Shown in pieces: positions 17,111 to 32,932 of a stretch of DNA of 47,799 nt. Source of the stretch: Eubacterium sp. Its GTDB lineage: Bacteria > Bacillota > Clostridia > Oscillospirales > Acutalibacteraceae. Below the pieces are notes generated by a model. That model made no database searches. It was not told the DNA's origin and saw nothing but the letters and a program-made list of their open reading frames with translations. The DNA is taken from assembly GCA_022511205.1 (NCBI GenBank), contig JAFLRY010000013.1, positions 1 through 47,799 on the forward strand, given 5' to 3'. The position numbers and the translations under genes are program-made. The stretch's first letter is position 1; each line of letters starts with the position of its first letter.

Positions 17111-18262
17111 TTAGTTACCTTTCATAAGCTGTCCGTAAAGCAGCATATGCTGACTGTTAGTACCGAAATCAGAGAAAACAGCAAAGGAAAATGAACTGTC
17201 AGCGATGAATTCATTTACTCCGGCGCTTTCTTTAGGTTCACCCGCCTTAGCCTTTTTGTTTTTCGGCGCTGAACCGATACCCTTTTCGTCAATTGTGATC
17301 CTGGTTTTTTGTATGATCTCCTGAATAAACCAATTTGCATCTGTGCACATGTTGTAGAAATTCGCGCTGTTTTCGTTGATTGCATCCTTGACGCCGCGCG
17401 ACAGCAAAAAGCCCAACAGGTCATTTGAATTAAAGGTTGACTCAAGATCGAATTTCGGCAAGACTACGTGAACCTTTTCCATATGAATCTTAGTCATTTT
17501 GTCAAACATATCCGTGCGGTTACCAAGAAAACAAACGAAGCTCATATTGTCTTTCATAGGGAGAACAAGCACTTTCGTGCCGGCTTCATTGCAATACAAA
17601 AATTCGCCTGTATTCTCCATAAAGTTCATGGTCTGCTCTTGACCGTCAATACCAACAAACGTGTTTTCATAGGTTGAGAATTTTGAGAACGCATTCTCCC
17701 ATGCGGTTTTTAAATGTATCGTGTTGATAAAAATTGCAGACGCGCCGACGGCATCATTCGCGGCAGTCGTGATCATACCGTCTGTTTTTTGATCGATCCA
17801 TTCGTTTATTGCCGGAAGCATCTCATCGGGATTGTAAGAATAAGCGTCGGCGTCATAAGTTTCTTTAATGCTTGACGTATAAATATCGGTGAACCCGCCC
17901 ATAAGATCCGTGTTGCTCCAAAGGGAATTTGCCACGGAGAACGACGGCTTGGCGTTTTTCATGCGGGAATACCATTTATTGAGCGAATCAATATCGGAAA
18001 AACCTGCGGCTTTCACCAATTCCGCACGGGTATCGCTCTGAGCGCTCGACGCGGCAAGACATAAAGCTACGCGTAAAGCTGTCGGCGATACCATGAAATC
18101 AGAATCATCATAGCCATTAAGACATAAATATGAAATCAATTCACCGTCAAACTCGCTGAGCTTATAATTTATAGGTCCCTCTGTATCAGGCTTTGATTTA
18201 TTACAAGCAACAAACCCTGTCAAAAGAACTACACACATAAGTAATGCCGCAATTTTTTTCAT
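17111..18262 (-). CDS. Serpin-family lipoprotein
   Basis: A 383-residue serpin, a fold that traps serine (sometimes cysteine) proteases by a suicide mechanism. Recognisable parts are NGYDDSDFMVSPTALRVAL near the start, FINTIHLKTAWENAF, and the distal strand FIADSSFSFAVFSD. The signal peptide ends in GFVAC, a lipobox, so it is probably held on the outer membrane face. The reactive-loop hinge is odd: after DEKG comes IGSAPKNKKAKAGEPKE, with Lys in place of the small residues that inhibitory serpins use for loop insertion; inhibition is therefore uncertain. Start at 18262 is chosen for the signal peptide; an ATG at 18319 would add 19 residues before it. Neither start has a good ribosome site. 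It is divergent from the giant surface protein. Confidence 0.85.
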   Translation of the reverse strand: MKKIAALLMCVVLLTGFVACNKSKPDTEGPINYKLSEFDGELISYLCLNGYDDSDFMVSPTALRVALCLAASSAQSDTRAELVKAAGFSDIDSLNKWYSRMKNAKPSFSVANSLWSNTDLMGGFTDIYTSSIKETYDADAYSYNPDEMLPAINEWIDQKTDGMITTAANDAVGASAIFINTIHLKTAWENAFSKFSTYENTFVGIDGQEQTMNFMENTGEFLYCNEAGTKVLVLPMKDNMSFVCFLGNRTDMFDKMTKIHMEKVHVVLPKFDLESTFNSNDLLGFLLSRGVKDAINENSANFYNMCTDANWFIQEIIQKTRITIDEKGIGSAPKNKKAKAGEPKESAGVNEFIADSSFSFAVFSDFGTNSQHMLLYGQLMKGN

Positions 18263-18345
18263 AAAACCCGCGCCGCGAATACCAACGGTTTCGACCGAAA
18301 GGAAACCGAAGCTTCGCATCCTTTCTAAAGAGTATTTCCTTGTTT

Positions 18346-18553: not shown

Positions 18554-21500
18554 ATGGGCAAAAAGTTTCGAAGCTTAGCGGCAGTGCTGCTGATCTTGGT
18601 AATGATCGTTCAAATGATACCTGCCAGCATTTTTTCCGCTCAGGCAATAGGCGATGCTTCGGGTAACGGCGCTGCCGTTTCCGTTGAAGAGATCGATTTT
18701 TCTCTGAAACGTCTGTTGGTAGGCACGAATGATTCATCTATCTTTGAAGAGGATACGAAAGTGATCGCTGAGTATGGCGATGTGTATCTGCTTGAATTCG
18801 AAGATGAAGATGAAACAAAAAGCGCCTATACATACTATAGCGAAGCAGCGGAGTTTGTTGACGCTGACGTTGCGTTGTTTGTTGCGGATAACGAGTCTAT
18901 CGATGGGAAGTCGACAGAGTCTGCAAACGCAGTAAGCGGCACGCAGTCGAATGCCAAAAACAATATCAGTAAAGGGCATTACGATGTTGCGATTATTGAT
19001 ACCGGCGTTGCAAACGGCGCGGCAGAATCTGTTTCTGTTATTGGCGGTGACGGCGTTGATGATAACGGTCACGGCACAGCTATGCTTGATGCTGTAAAGA
19101 GTGTTTCTGATGCTGTTTTCGTATTGTCTATCAAAGCGTTTGACAGCCACGGCATTGGATATCTGTCTGATGTGTATGCCGCCATACTGTGCGCCATTGA
19201 GCAGAATGTCAGCGTGATCAGTATGTCTTTCGCCGCAGAGATGAAAACAAACGGCTTTGTACTGGAGCACGCTGTTGCTATGGCAAAGGAAGCGGGCATT
19301 ATCTTCGTCGGCGCTGCCGGTAATGATAACGCCAACGTCTCCAAATATCTTCCCGGCAGATTAAATGATGTTTATATTGCCGGTGCTTGCGATGAAGACG
19401 GCGTAAGGCTTTCAACCTCCAATTACGGAGATAATGTGACGTGCAACGTAGTTGCCGGCTCTACCTCCGAGGCCGCCGCCAAGTTGGCTGCTATTATTGC
19501 TTTATACGGCGAAGACTATATAAGCGCCGAAATGAATAAGGGAGTTTTATTTGAAAAGAGCTACGGTATCCCTGCAGAGGAGCATGCTCAGCTGGTTGAG
19601 ACAGAAGCTTCTAACAACAGCCTTTTGAACAAGTCAGAGCTGACCGCCGCAACATTGGATGCGATCAGCGGAAAGCCCGTTGCTTCAACGAACAAGACTG
19701 ATACTGCAGACGAAGAGCCTGCTGATGTAGCTGACGAGACCACCGACGCAGCAGACGAAACTACGGATACAGCAGATGAGCCTGCTGATGTAGCTGACGA
19801 GACCACTGACGCAGCAGACGAGCCTGCCGATGTGGCCGACGAGACCACCGGCGTAGCAGACGAAACTGCTGATACAGCGGACGATCCCGCCGATGCGGCT
19901 GACGAGACCACCGATGTAGCAGACGAAACTGCTGATACAGCCGACGAGCCTGCCGATGTAGCCGACGAGCCTGCCGTTATAGCTGATGAACCGGAAGCTA
20001 TAACTGACGAGCCCTCCGGAGTTGATGATCCCGCTCAGAATACGGATGAAGATGAGGATGATGAGGATGACGAGGAAGATTGGACAACTCCGCCTTCTCA
20101 GGATCCTGATACAGTTGACAATACGACGATTGAGAGAGTTTATGTACGCTGGCAGAGCACAAGCGCCGGCGAAGAGACGCCTGCCTATTTCGGAACTTTG
20201 AAATTGGCTCCGGATTCAGAGCTTGTTGCGGATCAGCAATTCCAGATCGACTTTGCTCTTTCAGGTCAGGAACCTTATGAGCCCGGTATGATCGAGCTCA
20301 CGTTCCCGGCATACCTCTGGAAAGACAGATATGGCAAAGAGCCCGGCTATCTCACTGTAGCCGTTCCGGAAGATCCAACAGAAGGCGCGGAGTTTGTTTG
20401 GAAGCGAGTTGATAATAATATCGTTATTACCAACTCAAAGACGATCCCCGCCGCAAGCAAGGTAATGATCCAGGGCACGTTCCGCGGCGTTGTCGCTCCT
20501 GATATGAAGGACGAAACGTCTTCACTTGATTTTGTTGACTTTGGTGTAACGCTTACCGTTGAAACACCGCTTCACAATACCATTACCAAAAGGAGTAATA
20601 GTATTGACGCGAAAATTGATACGTCTGTAAAAGCAACCTATGCGAACAAGACGGCGTATAACAGCTTTACAAGAACTTACGATGTTTGGTGGGAGGAAAT
20701 TCCCGACAGCATCCCCAATGAACTGCTCCCCAAAAACCCGAATAATTATGCGTATATCCGCTGGTATGTTTCGGGTACTGCTTACGGAAGCCAGCCCTTT
20801 GATATGTACGTAACCGATACCGTTACGGATGATTACGGCGGGATCATGCTCGGTGTGTCTCACTGTGCTCAGGGAAACGGAACTGTTAAATCTACGAATA
20901 ATAAGACAGTCACAGCTCTGTTATATCACGGATACAGCACCACGGCAAAAACGGCTTACGTTTGGACTGCGTATCCGAAAGATAAGTTCCCCGAAGACGA
21001 AGTAGTTATGATACCCAACGAGCAGACTATTTCAGTTGTTGGCTGGGATGATGAAATCGAAACAACTCAAAAAGCGGAAAGCTCCGTAGACACAAAATCT
21101 CCTACTACATATACGTTTATCAAGCACTGGGACGATTTAGATGACGCGTGGGAAGTTCGTCCTACAAAGCTGGATCTGAACATTCTTTATGAAGGCCGCC
21201 TATGGAAAACCGTCACGCTTACAGAAGCCGATGCCTCTGATGGCGGAGATAACGATTGGAAATACACCTGGTCTGACGGCGGTCTCGCCGGTACTTTTGA
21301 CGTATCCGAAACCATGTATGATTACTATGGCGTTTGGGAAAAACGATTTGACGGCACAGGTCACCAGCTTGAATGGAACTACATTTTGGTTGGAACAGAC
21401 TATGACCCGGACACGCATACGTGGATTTATACGAACCGTTATGATGAGGGATGGATCAAGTTTGAGATATCCAAGATAGAAAAGAATGTTGAGTACAAAT

Positions 21501-24500
21501 TTAATGATAGCTCAACTGTAAGCTCCCGTGATAAGCTTTCTCTGAACAAGCTGCTGAGAAATGAAGATGTACTTGTGGAATATCCTGTTAAATCTCATAT
21601 CTCCGTTGCCAAGCCGTCGGTTTGGTTTGGCGTAAAGCCCAACAGGTTTGTTCTGGAGGACGTAGAATATATCCTGAATGATAATACCAATCTAACCGTT
21701 GATGACGTAAGTATTAACGCTGTCACCCTTGAGAATCCGGTTGTATGGCATTATATAGAGAATTCTTATAATGAAGACGGCTGGTATCAGCGCGAAACAG
21801 TGAAAGCTCCGGAAGCAACCCTCTACGGCTTAATGGGCGAAGACAATTGGGTCAAGATGGCAACACTTCTTGACGGCAAAGTTACGCCTGTTGGAGAGAA
21901 CGTAACTGTTACCGATATGCGTGTTAAGCTGCCGAACGGCGTTTCCAGAGTAAAGCTGGAGCTTGAATCTGACGAAGCTGTTGTAGAGATGAATTACACG
22001 GTTGAGCTTCGTGTAAGACCGACAGAACCGGTACTTGCCATGATCAACTCCGAATTCCAAAACAACGATCATCTGCGTTTCACCTTATACAACAAAGCCA
22101 ACGCTTACGCTATTTATCTTGGCGAAGAGGAAAAGATGGTCGACTGGATCCCCTATAAAACAGGCGACCGCGTCAGTGATATGTCTGACATAGCCATTGG
22201 TTACTTACACGGCAGACAGTTTAAAGTTGCGACTGATTTGGAGAAAAAGTTCGAGCTGACCGGAAGCGACGAGGTCAATAAGAGAGTCAAACTGACCGCT
22301 GAGCTGACGCTGACACAGCAATCCAACGTTAATACGATATCCGAGTACAAAGACGCTATTGCTGAAGGTGAAATTCCAAACACGAAATCAGGTGTATTTT
22401 ATGATCTTCTGCCCTTTGGTGTAGATCCTGATTTGACATCGATCAAAGCCGGTGATAATGACAGAATCGCGAACGCCTGGGTCGTTGAAAACTATAAGGA
22501 CTCCGGCCGCACGCTGCTTGTAGTCAAGGTTGAGTTTGAAGATAACATCAGCAATACTGAAGAGAGCAAGTATCCGGATAAATCAACTTATCCGACCGTT
22601 GGTTATAAAAACCAGCACACGATCAAGTTTGATTCCTACTGCCCATGGACAGTAGTTGCGAATACGTCTACAGGCTTTGCCGAGATGCGCAACGTTGCTG
22701 CCTATGAGGCAGACGAGCAGGATATCGGTACTTACACCGAATGGTCAGGCGAGCCGGACGATCCCACTAAGAATCAGCACGTATTATCTAGTACCGCAGT
22801 GGGACCTGATGCTGAGCTGATGACTGATCTTGATCCGAATCGTGACGATCCTTCATTCGTATACGCCGGCGCACCGCTTATCTATAAATCCATTGACGTT
22901 CAGGCGATAACGGGACTTGAAAAGAGCGTTCAGGCAGCAGGCTCAGGTTACTGGTCTAAGGGTCTTGATAATGACGTTAACGTTCAGGAGGGCGGCAAGT
23001 ATACCTACCGTCTGTCTGTAACCTCCGCACCGGATACCATTACGCAGGATATCATCCTTTTGGATTCTATTGAAAACTACATGCCTCAGGATTCTGATGA
23101 TCCGAAAGATATCGCCGATAAACACTGGCATGGTACCCTGGTGTCCGTCGATTTGGCGCAGGCTAAGAAGGTCGGCGTGGCCCCTGTTGTATATTACAGT
23201 ACAGTAAAGAATATTGACATCTCCGAATATGCCATGACGGTAGAAGGTACTCCGGATGATGTTATAGAAAAATTGGCAAGTTCACCGGATTGGTCAACGG
23301 AAGTATCGGATCTTTCTCAGGTTACTGCTGTTGCTATTGATCTCCGCAATCGCGAGGACGGCTCCGATTTCAGTCTTCAGTCCGGCGAGTCTCTGACAGT
23401 TTACCTGCATATGCGCGCCCCGTTTGAAAAGGATAATCCCAATCCCGACTATTTCAAGGGAACAAACGGACGTAATCATGTTAATAACGCCCATGCATAT
23501 AACGATATATATCTGAACTGTCTGCAGGTTGTTCATGGCACGAACACACATGCCTATATTCATAACAGCTATACGAAGGTCGGTATCTATACAAAATACA
23601 TCGACGTTAAGAAAGCTTGGGATGACGATAACGACCGCGACGGTAAGCGCCCCGGCTCGATCAAAGTTCATCTGTATGCCGACGGTGTAGACACCGGAGA
23701 GTACGTTGTTCTTAACGATGATAATAAATGGACCGGCACTTTTGAACGTATGCTTACCTACAATGAAGAAGACGGTAGCTATATCGACTATACTTTTGTA
23801 GAAGAGTTTGATAGCAAAGACGAATATCAGTTAAAAACAAAACAAGAGATTCGTAAAAACGGATCGGTTCTTATTACGTTAACCAACAAGCACGATCCGG
23901 AGACGATCAAAATCCCCATAACAAAGTTGTGGGATGATGAAAATAACAACGATAAAACAAGACCCTCTTCCATCATGGTGCGTCTGTATGCTGATGGTAA
24001 GCTTTACAAGACGATTACGATCACTCCGGATGTGGACGGAAACTGGTATGGCGAGTTTACGGATCTGCCGAAGTATCGCGATAAGGGCCAACCTATCGAG
24101 TATACGATTACAGAAGCTAACGTTGACAATTACATCCCGGGTAAAACCGAGGGTGATATGGACGAAGGCTTCACGCTTAACAACATATACTATCCATTCG
24201 GTGATTTGCTCGTTAAGAAGGTTCTGGAGGATGAGACTCTCAAATCTGCCGATACGGAGTTCACCTTCACATTGCTGCTGACAACCAAAGATGAAAACGG
24301 CAACGTGATAGATGAAACAAATAAATATAAATATACTATTCTTGATGGCGACGGCAAGGAAATCAAGAGCGGCGAGATCGGTAACGGTGATGAGTTTGTG
24401 CTCAAGGGCGGTCAAACGTTCCATGTTAAGGATATTCCGACAAACGTTGAGTACGCTGTCAGCGAAGCGAGCACAAACGGTTTCGAGATAATTGCATCGA

Positions 24501-27500
24501 ATGAAACCGGCAAAATCAGCTCATGGAAGCCGGCGGAAGCAGTATTTAAAAATAAGTATTCAAGCAAGGGCAATGCTCAGCTGGAAGCTATGAAATGCCT
24601 GTATGGCCGTGATCTGGTAAATCGTCAGTTCCGTTTTGAGTTATATGATGAACACGGCAATTTGCTGAGAACGGGGTATAATGATGAGAACGGTAAGGTA
24701 ACATTCGGCCAGATCGGCTATACGAATAAAGATGACGGCCTTGAGTTCAAATATAAGATATCCGAGTTTGAAGCAAAGAATCCCGGTTATACTTATGATG
24801 ACACGGTTTATTTCGCTACGGTTATTCCTCACGATAACGGCGACGGTACAATGACCTGCGAGGTCAAATATTATGACGCCGGAGGCAATGAGCTCAACAT
24901 CACCGAAGGCGAGAAGGATTATAAGGTACCGGTATTCAGAAATATTTACGAAGCAAAAGGCAGCATCTCGTTCCGCGCATGGAAGCTTATCGACGGCCGC
25001 GATGTTAATAACGAAGAGTTTACATTTGACATTTACGATGAAAACTTCAATTACATCGGCTCCGCGAAGAATGACGGCGACGGAATCATCAATTTCGAAA
25101 AGTTCAACTTCACGGAAGCTGACGCAGATAAGACATATTGGTATTATGTTCGCGAGCAGGTCGGTACGGATAAGACCGTTGTTTATACCGATGCGATTCT
25201 CGGCTATGTTGTAACCGTTGTTGATAACGGCGACGGCACGCTCAGCTTTAATCAGGGCTCTTATGATATGACTGAAGCGTTCTCCGAGTGCAAAGCTTGC
25301 GACGGAACAGGCAAAATTAAAAGGGCAACCTGTGAAACCTGCAATGCCTTTAAATATGTTCTTGATCCTGAATGGGTACAGCCGGACAAGAGCAACGTGC
25401 CGGTATTCTACAACGGACTTGTAGACGGCTCACTCTCTATAAGCAAGTATATTGATGGCGGCGGCGATCCGTATAAGGAATTTAAGTTCAAAGTCAAATT
25501 GATCGGCGAGAAGATCGAGGACGGCGAAATTGAGTTTGAAATTTCAGCCGCTGATTCCCGCGAATTCCCCAATACAAGCGGTTATCAGGCGATCTCAACC
25601 GATACTCCGGTTGCGCAGATACCTGCCGGTAACGAGAACCTTGACAATGAAAATACAGATGATGAATATTCAATCATGCCGCTTGCAGATACCACTTGGG
25701 GAATATCGTGGTCATACAGTAGCGGAGTTTTGACTATTGAACCCAGTAACGGTGTTGAAGGTACTTGGTATTTGCCACCGTCTCCAGGCTCAACACAAGA
25801 ATATATCTGGCCTTGGAATTCTTATCAAGGTTCTATGACAAAGGTTGTAACCACCGGTAAAATCAAGCTGGTTGGCGATGCGAGAGATTTATTCCGTTAC
25901 TGCTCGAGGCTGACGGATATCTCCGGCTTGGCGAATTGGGATGTGTCTGAAGTTACATCATTGAAGAGAGCGTTTGTGGATTGTACAATGCTTTCAGATA
26001 TCTCCCCGTTAAAGAATTGGAAGCCGAAAAAGCTGGAAACAATGGAGCAAACTTTCTATTCTTGCTCACGAATTAACAGTTTAGAGCCATTGGCGAATTG
26101 GACAACGGATAGCTTAATTTCGTTGGAGAAAACCTTTAGCGGCTGTAGCGGTGTTCAATCTCTTTCCGGATTAGAAAATTGGAAGACATCAAAAGTAGAA
26201 AAGCTGAATGAAACGTTCCGAACTTGCAAGATGGAGGGCGTTTCCGAGTTGGCAAACTGGGATACGTCATCAGTGAAGCAAATGGAAAAAACGTTTGAGG
26301 CTTGCAGTGCTTTGTATGATATTTCACCGTTGGGAAAATGGAATGTTGACAATGTAGAAACCTTTAGCAATATGTTCTCGGGTTGCTCCGTTCTTGATGA
26401 TATTTCTACTGTAACCGACTGGTGTAAAGAAGGCGCGAGAACAAGGTCGTTTAAAGAGATGTTTAAGAATTGTAAAGCTCTTAAAGATCTTACTCCGTTA
26501 AAGTATTGGGATATGAGCAACGCAACGAGTGTTGAAGGTATGTTTAACGGTTGCTCAATGCTTAAAGATCTTACCCCGTTGAAGGATTGGGAGATCACAA
26601 ACACGAAATCGCGAGCCTCTTTGTTCTCCAACTGCAGTATACTTACCGATCTCACGCCGTTAAAGGATTGGGATATGTCAGAAGTAACATCAATGGCTTC
26701 GATGTTCTCCTATTGTAAGGCGCTTACCGATCTTTCTCCGATAGCAAATTGGGAAACGACAAAATTGAGCAACTTAAGCGGCACCTTTGCAGGCTGCAAC
26801 ATTTTGACAGATATTTCTCCGTTAGCAAATTGGAGTACGGAAAATCTGACGGACACAAGCACTACGTTCTCCGGCTGTTACGCGCTTACCGATCTTTCTC
26901 CGATCACGAATTGGAATATGTTAAATGTTACAACGATGGAGAAGATGTTCCAAAGCTGTTACTCCCTTACAGACCTTTCTCCGATAGCAGGCTGGTTTAA
27001 GAATGATCCGGGCGCAAGCAAGTCGATGTACGGTCTGTTCTACTCCTGCCGGACGCTTACCAGTATTGCGCCGTTAAAGGATTGGAAGACATCAAATGTA
27101 ACGAATATCCGTTATATGTTCGACTTCTGTTACGAGCTTAGTGATATTTCCGCATTCGCAAATTGGGATGTATCCAGTGTAAAGAATATGGACAGCGTGT
27201 TTGAGCAGTGCCATTCTCTTTCCGATATTACTCCGATGAAGGATTGGGATACTTCAAGCGTAACATCGATGACGTATATGTTTGAGAAGTGTTACTCTCT
27301 TTCCGATGCTTCAGCGATAGCAAATTGGAATACAGAAAAGGTAACTACGATCAACAATCTGTTCTTTGATTGCACAAGCCTTACTACTGTTGACTTCAGC
27401 GGCTGGAATACTGCCAACATGACGAGCTATAATTCTGTTGAAAATATCTTTAGAAACTGCCCCAATGTATCGAAGATAACATTCGGCGAGAATTTCTTTA

Positions 27501-30500
27501 AGACCAGCAAATCATTTGCGTTTCCGACACCGGATTCAACTGTTTCAACGGGCAAATGGATAAACGAAAATGAATCCGATTGGCCGATGAGTTCTCAAAC
27601 TACATATTCTTCTGCACAGCTTGCCAGCAATAAGATGATCGGCACGTTTATATGGCAGTATAAGGACACGTCATATGATATAGATTTTGAGGCGGACGAA
27701 GCCAACGGTTTAATGCTCCGTGTAAAGGGCTCTTCCGTTGCAAATTACACGCTCCCGAGAAACGGATTTACAAAGCCGGGATGCACTTTTGCAGGCTGGC
27801 AGGATAAGAATGATAACACTAAGAATTTTGCGCTTTCATATGAAACCGGAATTTGTACGATCCCCGCAGGCACTTATGAGGCAGGCGCGGAAGTTACCCT
27901 GATTCCTGTTTGGTATGAGAATAGGCACAGCGCCGAAATCAAAGAAGGCGAGTTTGAACTCATTCTTCACGGCGGCGAGAAAGCAACCTTTGACAATCTT
28001 CCCGCCGGCACGATCTATCAGATTTGGGAAGAAACGCCGAACGGCTGGATTCTCATTAAGACTGTTGACGCTTCCGGCGTGATCAAGCCCAACGAAACGG
28101 TAGCGGCTGAATTCTATAACCTATATCAGCCGAATATGACGGCGGCAACGATCATCGGTACCAAGACGTTCGATAATCTTCCCGCCCATCAGGATAACAA
28201 GGGTAACGCTTTCGCATTTGAACTGCTGGAAAACAACAGAGTGATTCAAACGGTAAATGCAAAGCCCGGCGGTTTCATTCAGTTTAACTCGATCACATAT
28301 AGAACAGAGGGTACGCATACATACACAATTCGTGAAAAAGTAGGCTCTAATGCCGACATTCAGTATGATACCCATCAAGAGACTGTTATCGTAACGATTT
28401 CAAGGGACGACGACGGCAATATGTTTGCCACAGTTGAGTATGACGATGACGGCGCGAAGTTTGAAAACCGCTCCATTCCCGGCAAGCTGGAGATCAGCAA
28501 GGTCGGCGAAGGTATGACGGAGAGCACCAAAAACCCTGACTTTAAGTTTAAGGTTAAGCTCTATAACGAAAACGGCATACCTGTTGACGGCGAAGCCATT
28601 AAGTGGTATGTGATCGACAGCGAGACCGGCGAGGTTGTAAATAACAACACCGATCCAATCGTACCTGACGAAGAAATCAATAACAACGCATCCGCGCCGT
28701 TCGGCCTCGTTGCAAGTGCCGCGGTAAATGAGAACCTTGACAATAAGAATACAAAGAATGAAAATTCGATTGCAACTATTGCAGATGAAGAGCGAACTGT
28801 TTTCAAATCAGGTGCATATCAGGGTGTAATATGGACTCTTTATGAAAACTTTGATGACCCAAGTACGTATACTTTGTCTGTTGAGCCTAATCAGAATCCC
28901 GGCCCGAGACCATCCGGTGAATACGGTAACTATAGGGTAGGTGAGTTGCGTTTCCTTGGTGAAGGTGCTTATTATGATAAGCCGTGGAATTCTTACACCG
29001 GTAAAATTACTGCTATAGAGACCAAAAACGGTAAGATCCTCTGCGTCGGCAGCGCAAACGGCAACGGAAATAATCCCGGCATAGGATTTAATATGTTTGG
29101 CTATTATAGCATTCTTAAGGATCTTTCAGGTTTAGCGAATTGGAATGTCAGCAATATGTCATCGCTGAAGAAAGCATTCTACTATTGTAAAGAGCTTGAG
29201 AGCCTTTCCGGATTAGAGACCTGGAATGTATCAAATGTAAACGATATGGAACAGATGTTCTATGAGTGCGGGAAGCTTACGGACCTTACAGCGTTAAAGA
29301 GCTGGTATCCGTCAAGTATGAGCATTTATAAGGAAACGTTTGGTTATTGTAAGAGTATTGAAAGCCTTGAGGGATTAGAGAATTTCGGCAAGGCCAATCT
29401 AACTTCGCTGGATCAGACCTTCAATAACTGCCAGAAGCTCAGTGATATTTCCGCGTTAAAAGGTTGGAACGTATCGGGTGTACAAAGCATGAATCGCTTG
29501 TTCTGCAGTTGTTATGCACTCTCTGATATTTCTGTATTAGCGAGTTGGACTCCGTATTCGCTGAAGAAGTATGACGAGTTATTCGCCAATTGCCATATTC
29601 TTGAGGATATTTCTCCGATAACGAATTGGACGCCAAGGAATAACGAGACGACTATGGATAGTATGCTTTCAGGTTGCTATTTACTTTCCGATCTTACTCC
29701 GCTAAAAAATTGGAACACAGCCACAGTAACATCGATGGGTTCTTTGTTCTCCAGCTGCACCAATATCACCGATCTTTCTCCGTTGGCGAAATGGAATATG
29801 TCAAGTATAACGTCGATATATAATATGTTCAACGGCTGTACCGGTATTTATGATCTTAGTCCGTTAGGAAATTGGAGAATGAATAATACTTCGGTGCAAG
29901 TCGGAGGCATGTTCCAAAACTGTACCGGTATTACGGATATTTCGCCGTTAGCAAATTGGAAGCCGCAAAGCATCACGGGCAATGCTTCCCATATGTTTGA
30001 CGGTTGCACCGGTATTACTGACGCTACTCCGATAGCGGATTGGATTTATTCTTCGGGAACGTTTTCGTGTTATCAGATGTTCAGAAACTGCAGCAATCTT
30101 GTTGTTGTCGATATCAGCAAATTGAATTCCGCCGGTTGGAGGTGGGGAGAATCAGGTAGAGATATCTTTTCTGGATGCAGTAAGCTGTCTAAACTCACGA
30201 TTGGCGAGGGATTATATAACTATACAATAAACACACAAGTTACGCTCCCAACACCGAATCCGAATTACACAACAGGCAAATGGGTAAGAGAAGAGGAAGC
30301 AGATTGGGAGAATCCCGATGCTTATACTTCGGCAGAGATTATCAGTAACAAGATGACCGGTACGTTTGTATGGCAGTATCTGCCCAGTATGTACACCATT
30401 CATTTTGACGGCAACGGCGCGTCCGGCTCAATGATATCTCAAAAAGCAGCCGCGGCGGAAAATTACACGCTTCCGAATAATACGTTCTTAAACCCGGGCA

Positions 30501-32932
30501 ATGAATTTCTGGGCTGGCAGGATAAGAATGATCCTGACAATTACTTTGCGTTCAAAGACGGCAAGTGCGTGATCCCCGAGGGAACCTATGAGCCCGGCGA
30601 GACCATTACTCTGGAAGCTGATTGGAAGGATCTTGGCAATCCGAATTTAGTTCCCTATTACATTTATCATTATCAGCAAAATACAAATCTTAATGGTTAT
30701 GATCTTGCCGATATGGAGGTTAAGTATGCCGAGATCGGCACTTACGTTCCGGTAGAGACCAAATATTATGATGGTTTTGTTACTCCCACGCAGCAGGCTG
30801 ATAAGAAGATTTCGGCAAACAATGTGCTTAACGTTAAATACAATTATGGCCGCATTAGATACACCATTCATTTCGACGGCAACGGCGCTGATTTCGGAAG
30901 TATGGCCAATCTCACAATGATTTATGGAGTAGGCAAGGTTTTCGGCAATGGCTTCTCAAAGACTGAAAGCGCGTTCCTTGGTTGGAATACAGAGCCGGAC
31001 GGCAGCGGCAAGAGATATAGCGCCGTTATTCCCATTCAGCTCCCTGCGCAAAACGGAGAGACCATTACCCTGTACGCAGAGTGGGCAACGATAGATCAGT
31101 CTGCAGAGCCGTCTCAGGGCGAAATCATCGTTTCGTGCAAGGCCGGTCAGACTATCGTGATCCCGGATCTTCCCGCGGGTACAACTTATGAGATCGAAGA
31201 GATCAACATACCTTTCGGCTGGGTACTTGAGAATGAGAATGACATAAATGGTCAAATCAGCGCAAATAAGGCCTCTCAGGAGATAGTAACCAACCTTTAC
31301 AACGCAAGAGGCGTTGGATCGATCGTAGCGCATAAGACCCTTGTCGGTGATGCGTTGAATGCAGGCGCGTTTACGTTTGAGTTGTTTGATGAAGATCCTG
31401 AAAACTCTGATTCAGCTCTCGAACCGATTCAATCCGTTGTAAACGGCGAGGTGGATACGGTAGAAAAATCCACCGATGAAAACGGCGACATTGTTGATAA
31501 TCCGTGGTACGGCAAGGCGTCTGTTGTATTTGACGGCTTACAGTTTACTGAGCCCGGCGATTATACGTACTATATCCGCGAAAAAGCAGGAAACGATTCA
31601 ACGATCGTTTATGATACCCACGTTGAAAAGGTTACGGTTCATGTAACCGACAATGGCGACGGCTCGTTGGCAACAAAGGTTACCTATGAGAATAAGAATG
31701 GCGCTCCGTTCATCAATGAAATGCATCCGGGCGAGCTGACGGTTTCCAAGCACTTAGAAAACGCCACAGGCGCGGCTGAGCAGAAGAACTTTGAATTCCA
31801 AATCAATCTGACGGATGCTTCAGGCAACCCGCTGAACGGTATATATGACGTTGTAAAATCAAACGGTTCAAAAGAAAAGCTTATTGTTATCGACGGTATC
31901 GGAAGCATCATCAAAATCAAGGGCAACGAGAAGTTTACCGTAGAAGGTCTGCCTCACGGTGCTCAGTACAACGTAACAGAGCTTGAAGCTCAGGGCTTTG
32001 AACTGGTAAGCGCAGAGGGCGCTTCAGGTACTATCAAAGGCGGCGAAGAAGCGAAAGCCTCCTTCACCAACGTTTATATTGCAACGATTGAGCTTCCGTT
32101 AGGCGCAACGAAGATTTTCTTAGGCGGCAAGATTGAAGAAAACATGTTCTACTTTGAGCTGTTGTCTGACACAGGCAAAGTATTAGAGACAGTCGCAGCG
32201 GGAACTGACGGCAAGGTAGAGTTTAGCGCCATCGGTTACTCACAGGCGGACGTAGGGAATACCTTTACCTATATGATTCGTGAGGTTATAGACGATCTTG
32301 ACGGCGTTAAGTATGACGCTCATACCGAAACCGTTGAGGTTACCGTATCGAACGATGAAGACGGTAATATCATATTAACAGCAAACAAAAATGCTGAGGA
32401 TATAGTATTCACCAATGTTGCGCTGTTCGATCTTGATGTTTCTAAGACAGTAACAGGCACTTACGGTAATCAGAACAGAGAATTCAATTTCATTTTGACA
32501 ATGGAAAATGATACGTATGATCTGTCTGACGTAAGATGGTCAAAGGGCGGCAATTCCGACATCCTCAGACTGGATGAAAACGGTCAGTATGAGTTTGCGC
32601 TGAAGCACGATGAAACCATCAGCTTTAAGTATCTTCCCTTCGGTACGACTTATACTATAGAGGAAGTCAAGAATGGTCAGGATGATGATATATATTGGAC
32701 CACTATCCACACAACAATATCCAACGAGGAGGTTGTTGTTGAGGACGTGACCGTTACGGGTCAGATGGAAGCAAGCGCCTCCATCGAGTACATAAACCAC
32801 TGCACGATTGCAGAGTTACCCGAATTCGGCGGCGCGGGAACAATGCTGTTTTATTTCATTGGCATCATTCTGATGCTTGCTACTGCAGGCGCATGGCTGT
32901 ATAGCCGTAAGCATCGCAGGAATTTGGCATAA
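18554..32932 (+). CDS. Giant multidomain surface protein with subtilisin-like, Cna_B/SpaA-like and BspA-like LRR domains
   Basis: A 4,792-residue secreted protein. In order: signal peptide (1-31); S8 subtilisin-like domain with Asp149 (IIDTGV), His173 (NGHGTA), Asn257 (AAGNDN) and Ser305 (GSTSEAA, replacing GTSMA); a 7-residue acidic tandem repeat (about 383-494); adhesin-type beta domains; Cna_B-like repeats near 855, 1682 (KKAWDDDNDRDGKRP) and 1785; then alternating DUF7601/SpaA-like and pilin-isopeptide-like domains to the end. Two DUF7601-like domains (about 2290-3191 and 3310-4253) are interrupted by DUF285 leucine-rich blocks and InlB-type repeats. A CxxC-x10-CxxC motif lies at Cys2246-2263. 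The end is LPEFGG at 4755, a membrane helix and an Arg/Lys tail: a sortase-type signal with Phe in place of Thr. GGAGGA precedes the ATG. Likely role: adhesion with possible self- or host-protein cleavage. Confidence 0.88.
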   Translation: MGKKFRSLAAVLLILVMIVQMIPASIFSAQAIGDASGNGAAVSVEEIDFSLKRLLVGTNDSSIFEEDTKVIAEYGDVYLLEFEDEDETKSAYTYYSEAAEFVDADVALFVADNESIDGKSTESANAVSGTQSNAKNNISKGHYDVAIIDTGVANGAAESVSVIGGDGVDDNGHGTAMLDAVKSVSDAVFVLSIKAFDSHGIGYLSDVYAAILCAIEQNVSVISMSFAAEMKTNGFVLEHAVAMAKEAGIIFVGAAGNDNANVSKYLPGRLNDVYIAGACDEDGVRLSTSNYGDNVTCNVVAGSTSEAAAKLAAIIALYGEDYISAEMNKGVLFEKSYGIPAEEHAQLVETEASNNSLLNKSELTAATLDAISGKPVASTNKTDTADEEPADVADETTDAADETTDTADEPADVADETTDAADEPADVADETTGVADETADTADDPADAADETTDVADETADTADEPADVADEPAVIADEPEAITDEPSGVDDPAQNTDEDEDDEDDEEDWTTPPSQDPDTVDNTTIERVYVRWQSTSAGEETPAYFGTLKLAPDSELVADQQFQIDFALSGQEPYEPGMIELTFPAYLWKDRYGKEPGYLTVAVPEDPTEGAEFVWKRVDNNIVITNSKTIPAASKVMIQGTFRGVVAPDMKDETSSLDFVDFGVTLTVETPLHNTITKRSNSIDAKIDTSVKATYANKTAYNSFTRTYDVWWEEIPDSIPNELLPKNPNNYAYIRWYVSGTAYGSQPFDMYVTDTVTDDYGGIMLGVSHCAQGNGTVKSTNNKTVTALLYHGYSTTAKTAYVWTAYPKDKFPEDEVVMIPNEQTISVVGWDDEIETTQKAESSVDTKSPTTYTFIKHWDDLDDAWEVRPTKLDLNILYEGRLWKTVTLTEADASDGGDNDWKYTWSDGGLAGTFDVSETMYDYYGVWEKRFDGTGHQLEWNYILVGTDYDPDTHTWIYTNRYDEGWIKFEISKIEKNVEYKFNDSSTVSSRDKLSLNKLLRNEDVLVEYPVKSHISVAKPSVWFGVKPNRFVLEDVEYILNDNTNLTVDDVSINAVTLENPVVWHYIENSYNEDGWYQRETVKAPEATLYGLMGEDNWVKMATLLDGKVTPVGENVTVTDMRVKLPNGVSRVKLELESDEAVVEMNYTVELRVRPTEPVLAMINSEFQNNDHLRFTLYNKANAYAIYLGEEEKMVDWIPYKTGDRVSDMSDIAIGYLHGRQFKVATDLEKKFELTGSDEVNKRVKLTAELTLTQQSNVNTISEYKDAIAEGEIPNTKSGVFYDLLPFGVDPDLTSIKAGDNDRIANAWVVENYKDSGRTLLVVKVEFEDNISNTEESKYPDKSTYPTVGYKNQHTIKFDSYCPWTVVANTSTGFAEMRNVAAYEADEQDIGTYTEWSGEPDDPTKNQHVLSSTAVGPDAELMTDLDPNRDDPSFVYAGAPLIYKSIDVQAITGLEKSVQAAGSGYWSKGLDNDVNVQEGGKYTYRLSVTSAPDTITQDIILLDSIENYMPQDSDDPKDIADKHWHGTLVSVDLAQAKKVGVAPVVYYSTVKNIDISEYAMTVEGTPDDVIEKLASSPDWSTEVSDLSQVTAVAIDLRNREDGSDFSLQSGESLTVYLHMRAPFEKDNPNPDYFKGTNGRNHVNNAHAYNDIYLNCLQVVHGTNTHAYIHNSYTKVGIYTKYIDVKKAWDDDNDRDGKRPGSIKVHLYADGVDTGEYVVLNDDNKWTGTFERMLTYNEEDGSYIDYTFVEEFDSKDEYQLKTKQEIRKNGSVLITLTNKHDPETIKIPITKLWDDENNNDKTRPSSIMVRLYADGKLYKTITITPDVDGNWYGEFTDLPKYRDKGQPIEYTITEANVDNYIPGKTEGDMDEGFTLNNIYYPFGDLLVKKVLEDETLKSADTEFTFTLLLTTKDENGNVIDETNKYKYTILDGDGKEIKSGEIGNGDEFVLKGGQTFHVKDIPTNVEYAVSEASTNGFEIIASNETGKISSWKPAEAVFKNKYSSKGNAQLEAMKCLYGRDLVNRQFRFELYDEHGNLLRTGYNDENGKVTFGQIGYTNKDDGLEFKYKISEFEAKNPGYTYDDTVYFATVIPHDNGDGTMTCEVKYYDAGGNELNITEGEKDYKVPVFRNIYEAKGSISFRAWKLIDGRDVNNEEFTFDIYDENFNYIGSAKNDGDGIINFEKFNFTEADADKTYWYYVREQVGTDKTVVYTDAILGYVVTVVDNGDGTLSFNQGSYDMTEAFSECKACDGTGKIKRATCETCNAFKYVLDPEWVQPDKSNVPVFYNGLVDGSLSISKYIDGGGDPYKEFKFKVKLIGEKIEDGEIEFEISAADSREFPNTSGYQAISTDTPVAQIPAGNENLDNENTDDEYSIMPLADTTWGISWSYSSGVLTIEPSNGVEGTWYLPPSPGSTQEYIWPWNSYQGSMTKVVTTGKIKLVGDARDLFRYCSRLTDISGLANWDVSEVTSLKRAFVDCTMLSDISPLKNWKPKKLETMEQTFYSCSRINSLEPLANWTTDSLISLEKTFSGCSGVQSLSGLENWKTSKVEKLNETFRTCKMEGVSELANWDTSSVKQMEKTFEACSALYDISPLGKWNVDNVETFSNMFSGCSVLDDISTVTDWCKEGARTRSFKEMFKNCKALKDLTPLKYWDMSNATSVEGMFNGCSMLKDLTPLKDWEITNTKSRASLFSNCSILTDLTPLKDWDMSEVTSMASMFSYCKALTDLSPIANWETTKLSNLSGTFAGCNILTDISPLANWSTENLTDTSTTFSGCYALTDLSPITNWNMLNVTTMEKMFQSCYSLTDLSPIAGWFKNDPGASKSMYGLFYSCRTLTSIAPLKDWKTSNVTNIRYMFDFCYELSDISAFANWDVSSVKNMDSVFEQCHSLSDITPMKDWDTSSVTSMTYMFEKCYSLSDASAIANWNTEKVTTINNLFFDCTSLTTVDFSGWNTANMTSYNSVENIFRNCPNVSKITFGENFFKTSKSFAFPTPDSTVSTGKWINENESDWPMSSQTTYSSAQLASNKMIGTFIWQYKDTSYDIDFEADEANGLMLRVKGSSVANYTLPRNGFTKPGCTFAGWQDKNDNTKNFALSYETGICTIPAGTYEAGAEVTLIPVWYENRHSAEIKEGEFELILHGGEKATFDNLPAGTIYQIWEETPNGWILIKTVDASGVIKPNETVAAEFYNLYQPNMTAATIIGTKTFDNLPAHQDNKGNAFAFELLENNRVIQTVNAKPGGFIQFNSITYRTEGTHTYTIREKVGSNADIQYDTHQETVIVTISRDDDGNMFATVEYDDDGAKFENRSIPGKLEISKVGEGMTESTKNPDFKFKVKLYNENGIPVDGEAIKWYVIDSETGEVVNNNTDPIVPDEEINNNASAPFGLVASAAVNENLDNKNTKNENSIATIADEERTVFKSGAYQGVIWTLYENFDDPSTYTLSVEPNQNPGPRPSGEYGNYRVGELRFLGEGAYYDKPWNSYTGKITAIETKNGKILCVGSANGNGNNPGIGFNMFGYYSILKDLSGLANWNVSNMSSLKKAFYYCKELESLSGLETWNVSNVNDMEQMFYECGKLTDLTALKSWYPSSMSIYKETFGYCKSIESLEGLENFGKANLTSLDQTFNNCQKLSDISALKGWNVSGVQSMNRLFCSCYALSDISVLASWTPYSLKKYDELFANCHILEDISPITNWTPRNNETTMDSMLSGCYLLSDLTPLKNWNTATVTSMGSLFSSCTNITDLSPLAKWNMSSITSIYNMFNGCTGIYDLSPLGNWRMNNTSVQVGGMFQNCTGITDISPLANWKPQSITGNASHMFDGCTGITDATPIADWIYSSGTFSCYQMFRNCSNLVVVDISKLNSAGWRWGESGRDIFSGCSKLSKLTIGEGLYNYTINTQVTLPTPNPNYTTGKWVREEEADWENPDAYTSAEIISNKMTGTFVWQYLPSMYTIHFDGNGASGSMISQKAAAAENYTLPNNTFLNPGNEFLGWQDKNDPDNYFAFKDGKCVIPEGTYEPGETITLEADWKDLGNPNLVPYYIYHYQQNTNLNGYDLADMEVKYAEIGTYVPVETKYYDGFVTPTQQADKKISANNVLNVKYNYGRIRYTIHFDGNGADFGSMANLTMIYGVGKVFGNGFSKTESAFLGWNTEPDGSGKRYSAVIPIQLPAQNGETITLYAEWATIDQSAEPSQGEIIVSCKAGQTIVIPDLPAGTTYEIEEINIPFGWVLENENDINGQISANKASQEIVTNLYNARGVGSIVAHKTLVGDALNAGAFTFELFDEDPENSDSALEPIQSVVNGEVDTVEKSTDENGDIVDNPWYGKASVVFDGLQFTEPGDYTYYIREKAGNDSTIVYDTHVEKVTVHVTDNGDGSLATKVTYENKNGAPFINEMHPGELTVSKHLENATGAAEQKNFEFQINLTDASGNPLNGIYDVVKSNGSKEKLIVIDGIGSIIKIKGNEKFTVEGLPHGAQYNVTELEAQGFELVSAEGASGTIKGGEEAKASFTNVYIATIELPLGATKIFLGGKIEENMFYFELLSDTGKVLETVAAGTDGKVEFSAIGYSQADVGNTFTYMIREVIDDLDGVKYDAHTETVEVTVSNDEDGNIILTANKNAEDIVFTNVALFDLDVSKTVTGTYGNQNREFNFILTMENDTYDLSDVRWSKGGNSDILRLDENGQYEFALKHDETISFKYLPFGTTYTIEEVKNGQDDDIYWTTIHTTISNEEVVVEDVTVTGQMEASASIEYINHCTIAELPEFGGAGTMLFYFIGIILMLATAGAWLYSRKHRRNLA
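19700..20033 (+). repeat. 21-bp tandem repeat coding a 7-residue acidic linker
   Basis: About 15 units of ADEPADV, ADETTDA and close variants. It is a flexible, strongly acidic spacer between the subtilisin-like and adhesin parts and ends in a run of Asp/Glu. Near-identical 21-bp units could change number by slippage or recombination. Confidence 0.9.
25890..27480 (+). repeat. First DUF285 (BspA-like) leucine-rich block, about 19 units
   Basis: Units of about 27-30 residues with the pattern LTDISPLxNWxxxxVTSMxxMFxxC. Each unit holds one Cys after the MF pair. The final units lose the SPL segment (TTVDFSGW, ITFGENFF). The block is followed by an InlB-type repeat (FAGWQDKND). Confidence 0.9.
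29090..30210 (+). repeat. Second DUF285 (BspA-like) leucine-rich block, about 13 units
   Basis: Same unit type as the first block. The two modules share near-identical borders: GAGAACCTTGACAAT (about 25635 and 28730) before the block, and GGCTGGCAGGATAAGAATGA (about 27796 and 30512) after it. This points to duplication of a whole module followed by divergence of the repeats. Confidence 0.88.

Follow-up and report, generated by a model that had tools for sequence, protein, structure and literature searches.

The 47,799-nucleotide contig JAFLRY010000013.1 of a Eubacterium sp. genome (assembly GCA_022511205.1), hereafter the window, encodes a giant surface protein of 4792 amino acids in which two DUF7601 domains are each split by a large insert bearing leucine-rich repeats (LRRs). 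We consider it highly probable that this protein is a wall-anchored fibrillar adhesin in which two CnaB-like DUF7601 stalk domains host DUF285/PARCEL and Flg_new repeats in the loop between their third and fourth strands. The three strands that precede each insert and those that follow it would close into a single sandwich, and a Lys-Asn isopeptide bond from the first strand to the last, with Glu as the catalyst, would lock that sandwich. The insert would then project sideways from the stalk as a tension-free binding arm; because the bond would join both ends of the host domain, tension in the stalk is expected to run through the bond and bypass the insert. The two arms are most likely ligand-binding modules borne laterally on the stalk.

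Judged by its domain make-up, this protein probably belongs to the wall-anchored fibrillar adhesins, with a presumed role in adhesion. Its N-terminal start resembles a signal peptide by eye, and its C-terminus carries LPEFGG followed by a hydrophobic stretch and a basic tail; the match to the LPXTG_anchor model is borderline, at E 0.028 and 15.1 bits where the cut-off is 15.9. The Pfam families that exceed their cut-offs in at least one piece of the protein are Cna_B, DUF7601, FctA, DUF285, LRR_5, Flg_new, and DUF5979, with Flg_new doing so at site 2 only, and Cna_B, FctA, and DUF7601 would together form a stalk of repeated beta domains. NCBIfam models add PARCEL repeats, streptococcal pilin isopeptide repeats, and an N-terminal subtilisin-like part that scores below its cut-off.

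The split domains and their inserts

A search of the window's own genome with PF24547, the DUF7601 model (E <= 10), places five copies of the domain in the giant protein, three uninterrupted and two split, at the coordinates that an earlier note on this DNA had given. The features of the protein are as follows:

18554-32932, + strand: giant surface protein, one open frame, 4792 aa
24200-24559, + strand: uninterrupted DUF7601 (PF24547 E 2.4e-17)
25427-25576, + strand: site 1, N-terminal part of split DUF7601 (model 1-53, E 0.004; Lys 2298 at 25445-25447)
25559-25696, + strand: site 1, linker, predicted disordered (AlphaFold2 model residues 47-92, pLDDT under 50)
25694-25894, + strand: site 1 insert, N-terminal cap region of leucine-rich module
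25892-27334, + strand: site 1 insert, DUF285/PARCEL leucine-rich repeats (15 matches of repeat model)
27674-27832, + strand: site 1 insert, diverged Flg_new (InlB-type) repeat (E 1.8e-4, below curated cut-off)
27935-28120, + strand: site 1, C-terminal part of split DUF7601 (model 50-114, E 2.0e-7; Glu 3159 at 28028-28030, Asn 3189 at 28118-28120)
28481-28645, + strand: site 2, N-terminal part of split DUF7601 (model 1-53, E 0.012; Lys 3316 at 28499-28501)
28823-29098, + strand: site 2 insert, N-terminal cap region
29090-30043, + strand: site 2 insert, DUF285/PARCEL leucine-rich repeats (10 matches of repeat model)
30392-30559, + strand: site 2 insert, first Flg_new repeat (whole-piece E 7.1e-9, two stretches, above cut-off)
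30860-31096, + strand: site 2 insert, second Flg_new-like repeat (boundaries by eye)
31073-31294, + strand: site 2, C-terminal part of split DUF7601 (model 41-114, E 8.7e-9; Glu 4216 at 31199-31201, Asn 4247 at 31292-31294)
31730-32077, + strand: uninterrupted DUF7601 (PF24547 E 2.3e-24)
32429-32743, + strand: uninterrupted DUF7601/DUF5979-like domain (model 2-93)

At each site, the complementary parts of the model are separated by a long stretch of protein, ~790 residues in copy 1 and ~810 in copy 2. When the four pieces are scanned singly, DUF7601 is the best Pfam family of every one (in copy 1, E 0.00065 for the N-terminal and 7.8e-8 for the C-terminal part; in copy 2, 0.0011 and 3e-9), the pieces cover model positions 1-54 and 50-114 (copy 1) and 1-52 and 41-114 (copy 2) of 116, and both C-terminal parts score over the Pfam cut-off. 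The N-terminal parts are convincing despite their weak scores because of their place, their register, and their relatives. The earlier note had described a DUF7601 domain split twice at the same loop by a module of LRR and InlB-type repeats, and these model parts, together with the homologous proteins described below, bear that description out.

The residues predicted to form the isopeptide bond straddle both inserts. DUF7601 is listed as CnaB-like, with Lys, Glu, and Asn as its bond residues, in the accessible text of PMC12617251, where the bond of CnaB-like domains is described as joining the first and last strands. In the window protein, the predicted residues are K2298, E3159, and N3189 at site 1 and K3316, E4216, and N4247 at site 2, so that at both sites the Lys precedes the insert and the Glu and Asn follow it. 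Among 24 site domains of the first 12 homologous proteins (20 split, four not), Lys and Glu are present in all 24 and Asn in 23; the exception, site 1 of L123, has Asp in place of Asn. Of the split copies alone, all 20 retain Lys before the gap and Glu after it, and 19 retain the Asn that follows (two cells of the residue table were filled by eye, the pattern having missed or cut them). The distance from Lys to Glu ranges from 568 to 1005 residues in the seven split copies measured.

The position of the split coincides with the most length-variable place in the domain. In 60 intact copies, which include the uninterrupted site-1 domains and the seed copies, the place that gathers the most inserted residues is model position 47 (244 across 31 copies, up to 38), followed by position 88 with 66 residues, and it is around position 47 that the N-terminal parts end and the C-terminal parts start in most copies. 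The guest therefore occupies a loop that varies naturally in length. An AlphaFold2 model of the site 1 region (pTM 0.61) has three strands ahead of the insert (3-9, 20-28, and 34-43), an LRR solenoid, and then a series of strands that begins at 844, past the insert; the loop would therefore lie between the third and fourth strands. A search of solved structures by sequence gave one weak relative, 7w7i, of the uninterrupted L043 domain (E 0.0025).

Both inserts contain tandem leucine-rich repeats, which begin at about residues 2450 and 3510 of the protein and lie between the parts of the split domains. DUF285 (PF03382) matches them at 1.2e-102 (site 1) and 3.5e-44 (site 2) in a scan of the inserts and at 1.4e-91 and 4.3e-38 in a Pfam scan of protein pieces, and TIGR02167, above its cut-off, at 6e-31 and 1.1e-13. 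At E <= 0.001, Flg_new is not found in the trimmed site 1 insert of the window and appears weakly in a longer piece only. The G+C contents of the inserts (43.2 and 43.8%, vs 45.6% for the gene) show no clear compositional sign of recent arrival. The two split regions are 42% identical as a whole, and their borders are similar (NENLDNENT and NENLDNKNT); the earlier note had called the border sequences near-identical, which they are not across their length.

Filled and uninterrupted sites in homologous proteins

The same two consecutive DUF7601 positions recur across 16 homologous giant proteins, the window protein included, from 13 genomes, with three in isolate HAN069 and two in genome G500. 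Scanning the species collection turned up three loci that match across the entire region, namely L043, from the Oscillospiraceae isolate HAN069, and L042 and L044, whose records are labeled Erysipelotrichaceae and trace to water buffalo abomasum and sheep duodenum. A family-level search with the complete split region matched 19 of 150 genomes, with LRR or DUF7601 matches, and the split layout was absent from the frames of the five loci examined from that search. The stretch before site 1, used as a query against 40 relatives, matched four including the window's own genome, the best of the others at 9.4e-13 over part of the query. For wider searches, we used a model of the N-terminal part plus cap built from seven copies (A4). 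At E <= 0.001, this model matched 21 of 295 genomes of the order, 15 of 120 relatives of the L044 genome, and nine of 81 relatives of the HAN069 genome, of which HAN069 alone held both parts; 12 of 272 genomes of the L044 family reached 1e-8. Stretches were chosen from matches in large frames, and weaker matches were left out (for example, G1066, with the N-terminal part only in a frame of 1008 aa, and G1040, with the cap only). Six further large DUF7601 proteins (L087-L091 and L124) showed no split copy by reading and stand outside the 16; L088, L090, and L124 are incomplete in the stretch read, their genome frames being longer.

When the 16 proteins were scanned with a DUF7601 model based on 14 intact copies, site 2 proved to be interrupted in all of them. 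Site 1 is interrupted in 11 (the window protein, L042, L044, L092, L118, L120, L121, L123, L130, L131, and L133, the N-terminal part of the last lying beyond the contig end) and uninterrupted in five (L043 2331-2448, L093 1983-2100, L119 2110-2242, L122 1937-2054, and L132 1848-1966). The guests range from roughly 270 to 1240 residues. In a Pfam scan of 20 of the 27 filled sites, those of the first 12 proteins, DUF285 was over its cut-off in 19 inserts, and Flg_new at E <= 0.001 was present in every one of the 12 site-2 inserts but in none of the eight trimmed inserts of site 1. Paralogs within one genome can differ at site 1: of the three in HAN069 (genome G448), L043 and L093 have it uninterrupted and L092 has it filled, and of the two in G500, it is filled in L118 and uninterrupted in L119. 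In L118 (4058-4300) and L122 (3222-3432, both in protein residues) and also in L130, L131, and L133, another DUF7601 copy is interrupted by a small insert, roughly 110-180 residues long; those of L118 and L122 gave no Pfam match at E <= 0.1.

This distribution points to the loop as a slot that can be reused to display modules that would bind ligands. More tentatively, and with somewhat less than an even chance of being right, we propose that, in genomes labeled Oscillospiraceae and Erysipelotrichaceae and in their relatives, a CnaB-like domain locked by an isopeptide bond offers its third/fourth-strand loop as a conserved display slot. The slot might stand empty or hold LRRs, Flg_new alone, or, in a further copy, a small insert, and guests might be lost, gained, or swapped from slot to slot within a protein, with the hosts fixed by descent. 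Binding specificity could then shift with no change to the stalk, and the covalent bond would keep the arm off the line of force.

Descent of hosts and guests

The host flanks follow their site rather than their protein. Same-site copies of different proteins, with pairs between the close relatives L042 and L044 dropped, average 47.1% identity in the N-terminal part and 51.4% in the C-terminal part, vs 26.5 and 36.7% between sites. The two sites of one protein are no more alike than those of different proteins, either in the N-terminal part (27.6 vs 26.7%; 3129 of 20000 permutations as high) or in the C-terminal part (36.7 vs 37.0%; 13123 of 20000). A tree of the C-terminal parts with 32 rows has one branch that sets off site 1 (93/77), one that sets off site 2 (95/95), and one that sets off eight other DUF7601 copies (92/88), and four uninterrupted site-1 domains fall within site 1; the tree has few columns and four rows with long branches, and L130-L133 were left out of it. 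Because the 24 rows from the two sites lie together, away from the eight other copies (92/88), an ancient duplication of the host domain is still likely on these alignments.

The guests behave differently from their hosts. The cap carries no site signal (25.7 vs 25.1%), and it is 46.2% identical within proteins vs 29.8% between them, a comparison of four proteins (two of 24 permutations) in which, of the 20 split copies, five had no cap match and five weak matches were dropped. For the C-terminal cap, with one copy lacking a match and one weak match dropped, the figures are 43.2 vs 38.5% (330 of 5040 permutations as high). The score ratio of whole inserts is 0.204 within a protein vs 0.132 between the two sites of different proteins (five of 5040 permutations; five of 720 without L044), an excess that is moderate because same-site inserts of different proteins reach 0.187. 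We read these sequence comparisons as two old host domains whose guests are kept alike, or replaced, within each gene.

One process that could keep them so is recombination between the two sites, by homogenization or module exchange, while the hosts evolve separately. It would add to the nested-domain explanation and is compatible with it, and we see the case for it as evenly balanced. The within-protein excess of whole inserts and the identity of the cap speak for it, but the cap test involves four proteins, the C-terminal cap alone is weak, and inserts at the same site in other proteins resemble each other almost as much, perhaps partly since Flg_new accompanies site 2. No near-identical DNA joins the two inserts, the longest matches being 65-66% over 271 and 364 bases, and each protein's own repeat type could yield the same picture.

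The earlier note had instead suggested that one module was probably duplicated together with its insertion site. The resemblance of inserts and borders within the protein agrees with that proposal, as does the branch that sets the site-1 and site-2 rows apart from the eight other copies, but the flanks group by site across genomes and show no within-protein excess. Each site is common to homologs in other genomes, which contradicts a recent event; a joint duplication would predate the family. We consider duplication as a single unit in this lineage improbable.

It is very unlikely that insertion broke the domain and left flanking remnants that do not fold, with the LRR modules simply in line: the weak N-terminal parts and the AlphaFold2 result would allow it, but the bond residues kept in nearly all split copies and the same-site identity of the flanks argue that these are not decaying remnants, and AlphaFold2 places strands in both pieces.

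Several observations nonetheless weigh against two closed, LRR-bearing stalk domains. Scanned singly, the N-terminal parts fall under the Pfam cut-off, and in the AlphaFold2 result a closed sandwich is not directly visible, only strands. In a fold comparison of the model, the 50 matches listed were LRR proteins and did not reach the flanks. The site 2 insert of L123 holds Flg_new only and no DUF285. The layout is also rare, as the window's own genome was the sole case that A4 gave in two of the samples, being alone among the 295 genomes of the order in covering both model parts and alone among 398 genomes of the phylum in reaching 1e-6.

Other features and known systems

The N-terminal region of the giant protein includes a subtilisin-like stretch (18980-19522) with the motifs IIDTG, NGHGT, and STSEAAA (NCBIfam QhpE 3.5e-13, below cut-off), followed downstream by acidic low-complexity repeats of the TADEPADVADETTD type at 19700-20032. 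Comparable motifs occur in L043, and the patterns were unmatched in the first 600 residues of L092, L093, and L119, the others covered by this check; the L092 frame begins at a contig end. A serpin gene (17111-18319, - strand; Pfam 5.3e-46) lies divergent from the giant gene. Directly before site 1, beside an FctA domain, is a DnaJ-like cysteine motif (CKACDGTG...CETC, 25229-25351; Pfam DnaJ_CXXCXGXG E 0.0039, below cut-off), with similar motifs at the equivalent place in L043, L092, and L093 and a partial one in L118. Eight homologs (L042, L044, and L118-L123) share a C-terminal YGxxNxF/Y...WxW tail and, unlike the window protein, L043, and L093, have no LPXTG signal or membrane stretch in their last 60 residues; the tail is perhaps an alternative way of anchoring.

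The LRRs of Listeria internalins stand close to the N-terminus and in line with the chain. Those of the window protein differ in lying deep in the chain, inside a stalk-domain loop. LRRs count as an adhesive domain in one survey of fibrillar adhesins (PMC9210967, accessible text). The inserts belong to the same repeat family as the PARCEL/DUF285 surface proteins, whose repeats are described as modular regions in varied flanks that likely spread between genomes (PMC2996958); the accessible text of that work gives no nesting inside a named host domain, whereas those of the window are nested in DUF7601.

Nested adhesive domains themselves have precedents, so the layout that the earlier note had called unusual is known in kind, and its new part is the LRR guest. 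The pilus-tip adhesins RrgA, GBS104, and Mfa5 carry a vWF domain between two segments of an isopeptide-bearing stalk domain, as far as the accessible text of PMC7835359 describes them. They resemble the window protein in nesting a large adhesive domain between segments of such a stalk domain, and the window insert likewise sits between the bond-forming residues, with Lys on one side and Glu and Asn on the other. They differ in combining a CnaA-like host with a vWFA guest at one site, whereas the window protein combines a CnaB-like DUF7601 host with an LRR guest at two. CnaA folds and CnaB folds alike can accommodate inserted domains in their loops, and large inserts in CnaB-like domains, including Spy0125, lie between the bond-forming residues as in the window; CnaB, vWFA, and thioester domains are the guests named in the accessible text of PMC12617251, and LRRs are not among them. 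In the literature searched, with subscription journals mostly outside it, we found no description of an LRR nested in an isopeptide stalk domain or of a slot that may be filled or empty. Scans that expect one continuous domain match easily overlook such nesting.

The homologous proteins provide a natural series of one stalk domain with and without its guest, in which the folding of a covalently locked domain around its insert, and the possible sparing of a side arm from pulling force, can be studied. Nesting in the loops of CnaA and CnaB domains is already known from RrgA, GBS104, and Spy0125; if the arrangement proposed here is correct, leucine-rich modules join the known guests of isopeptide stalk folds.
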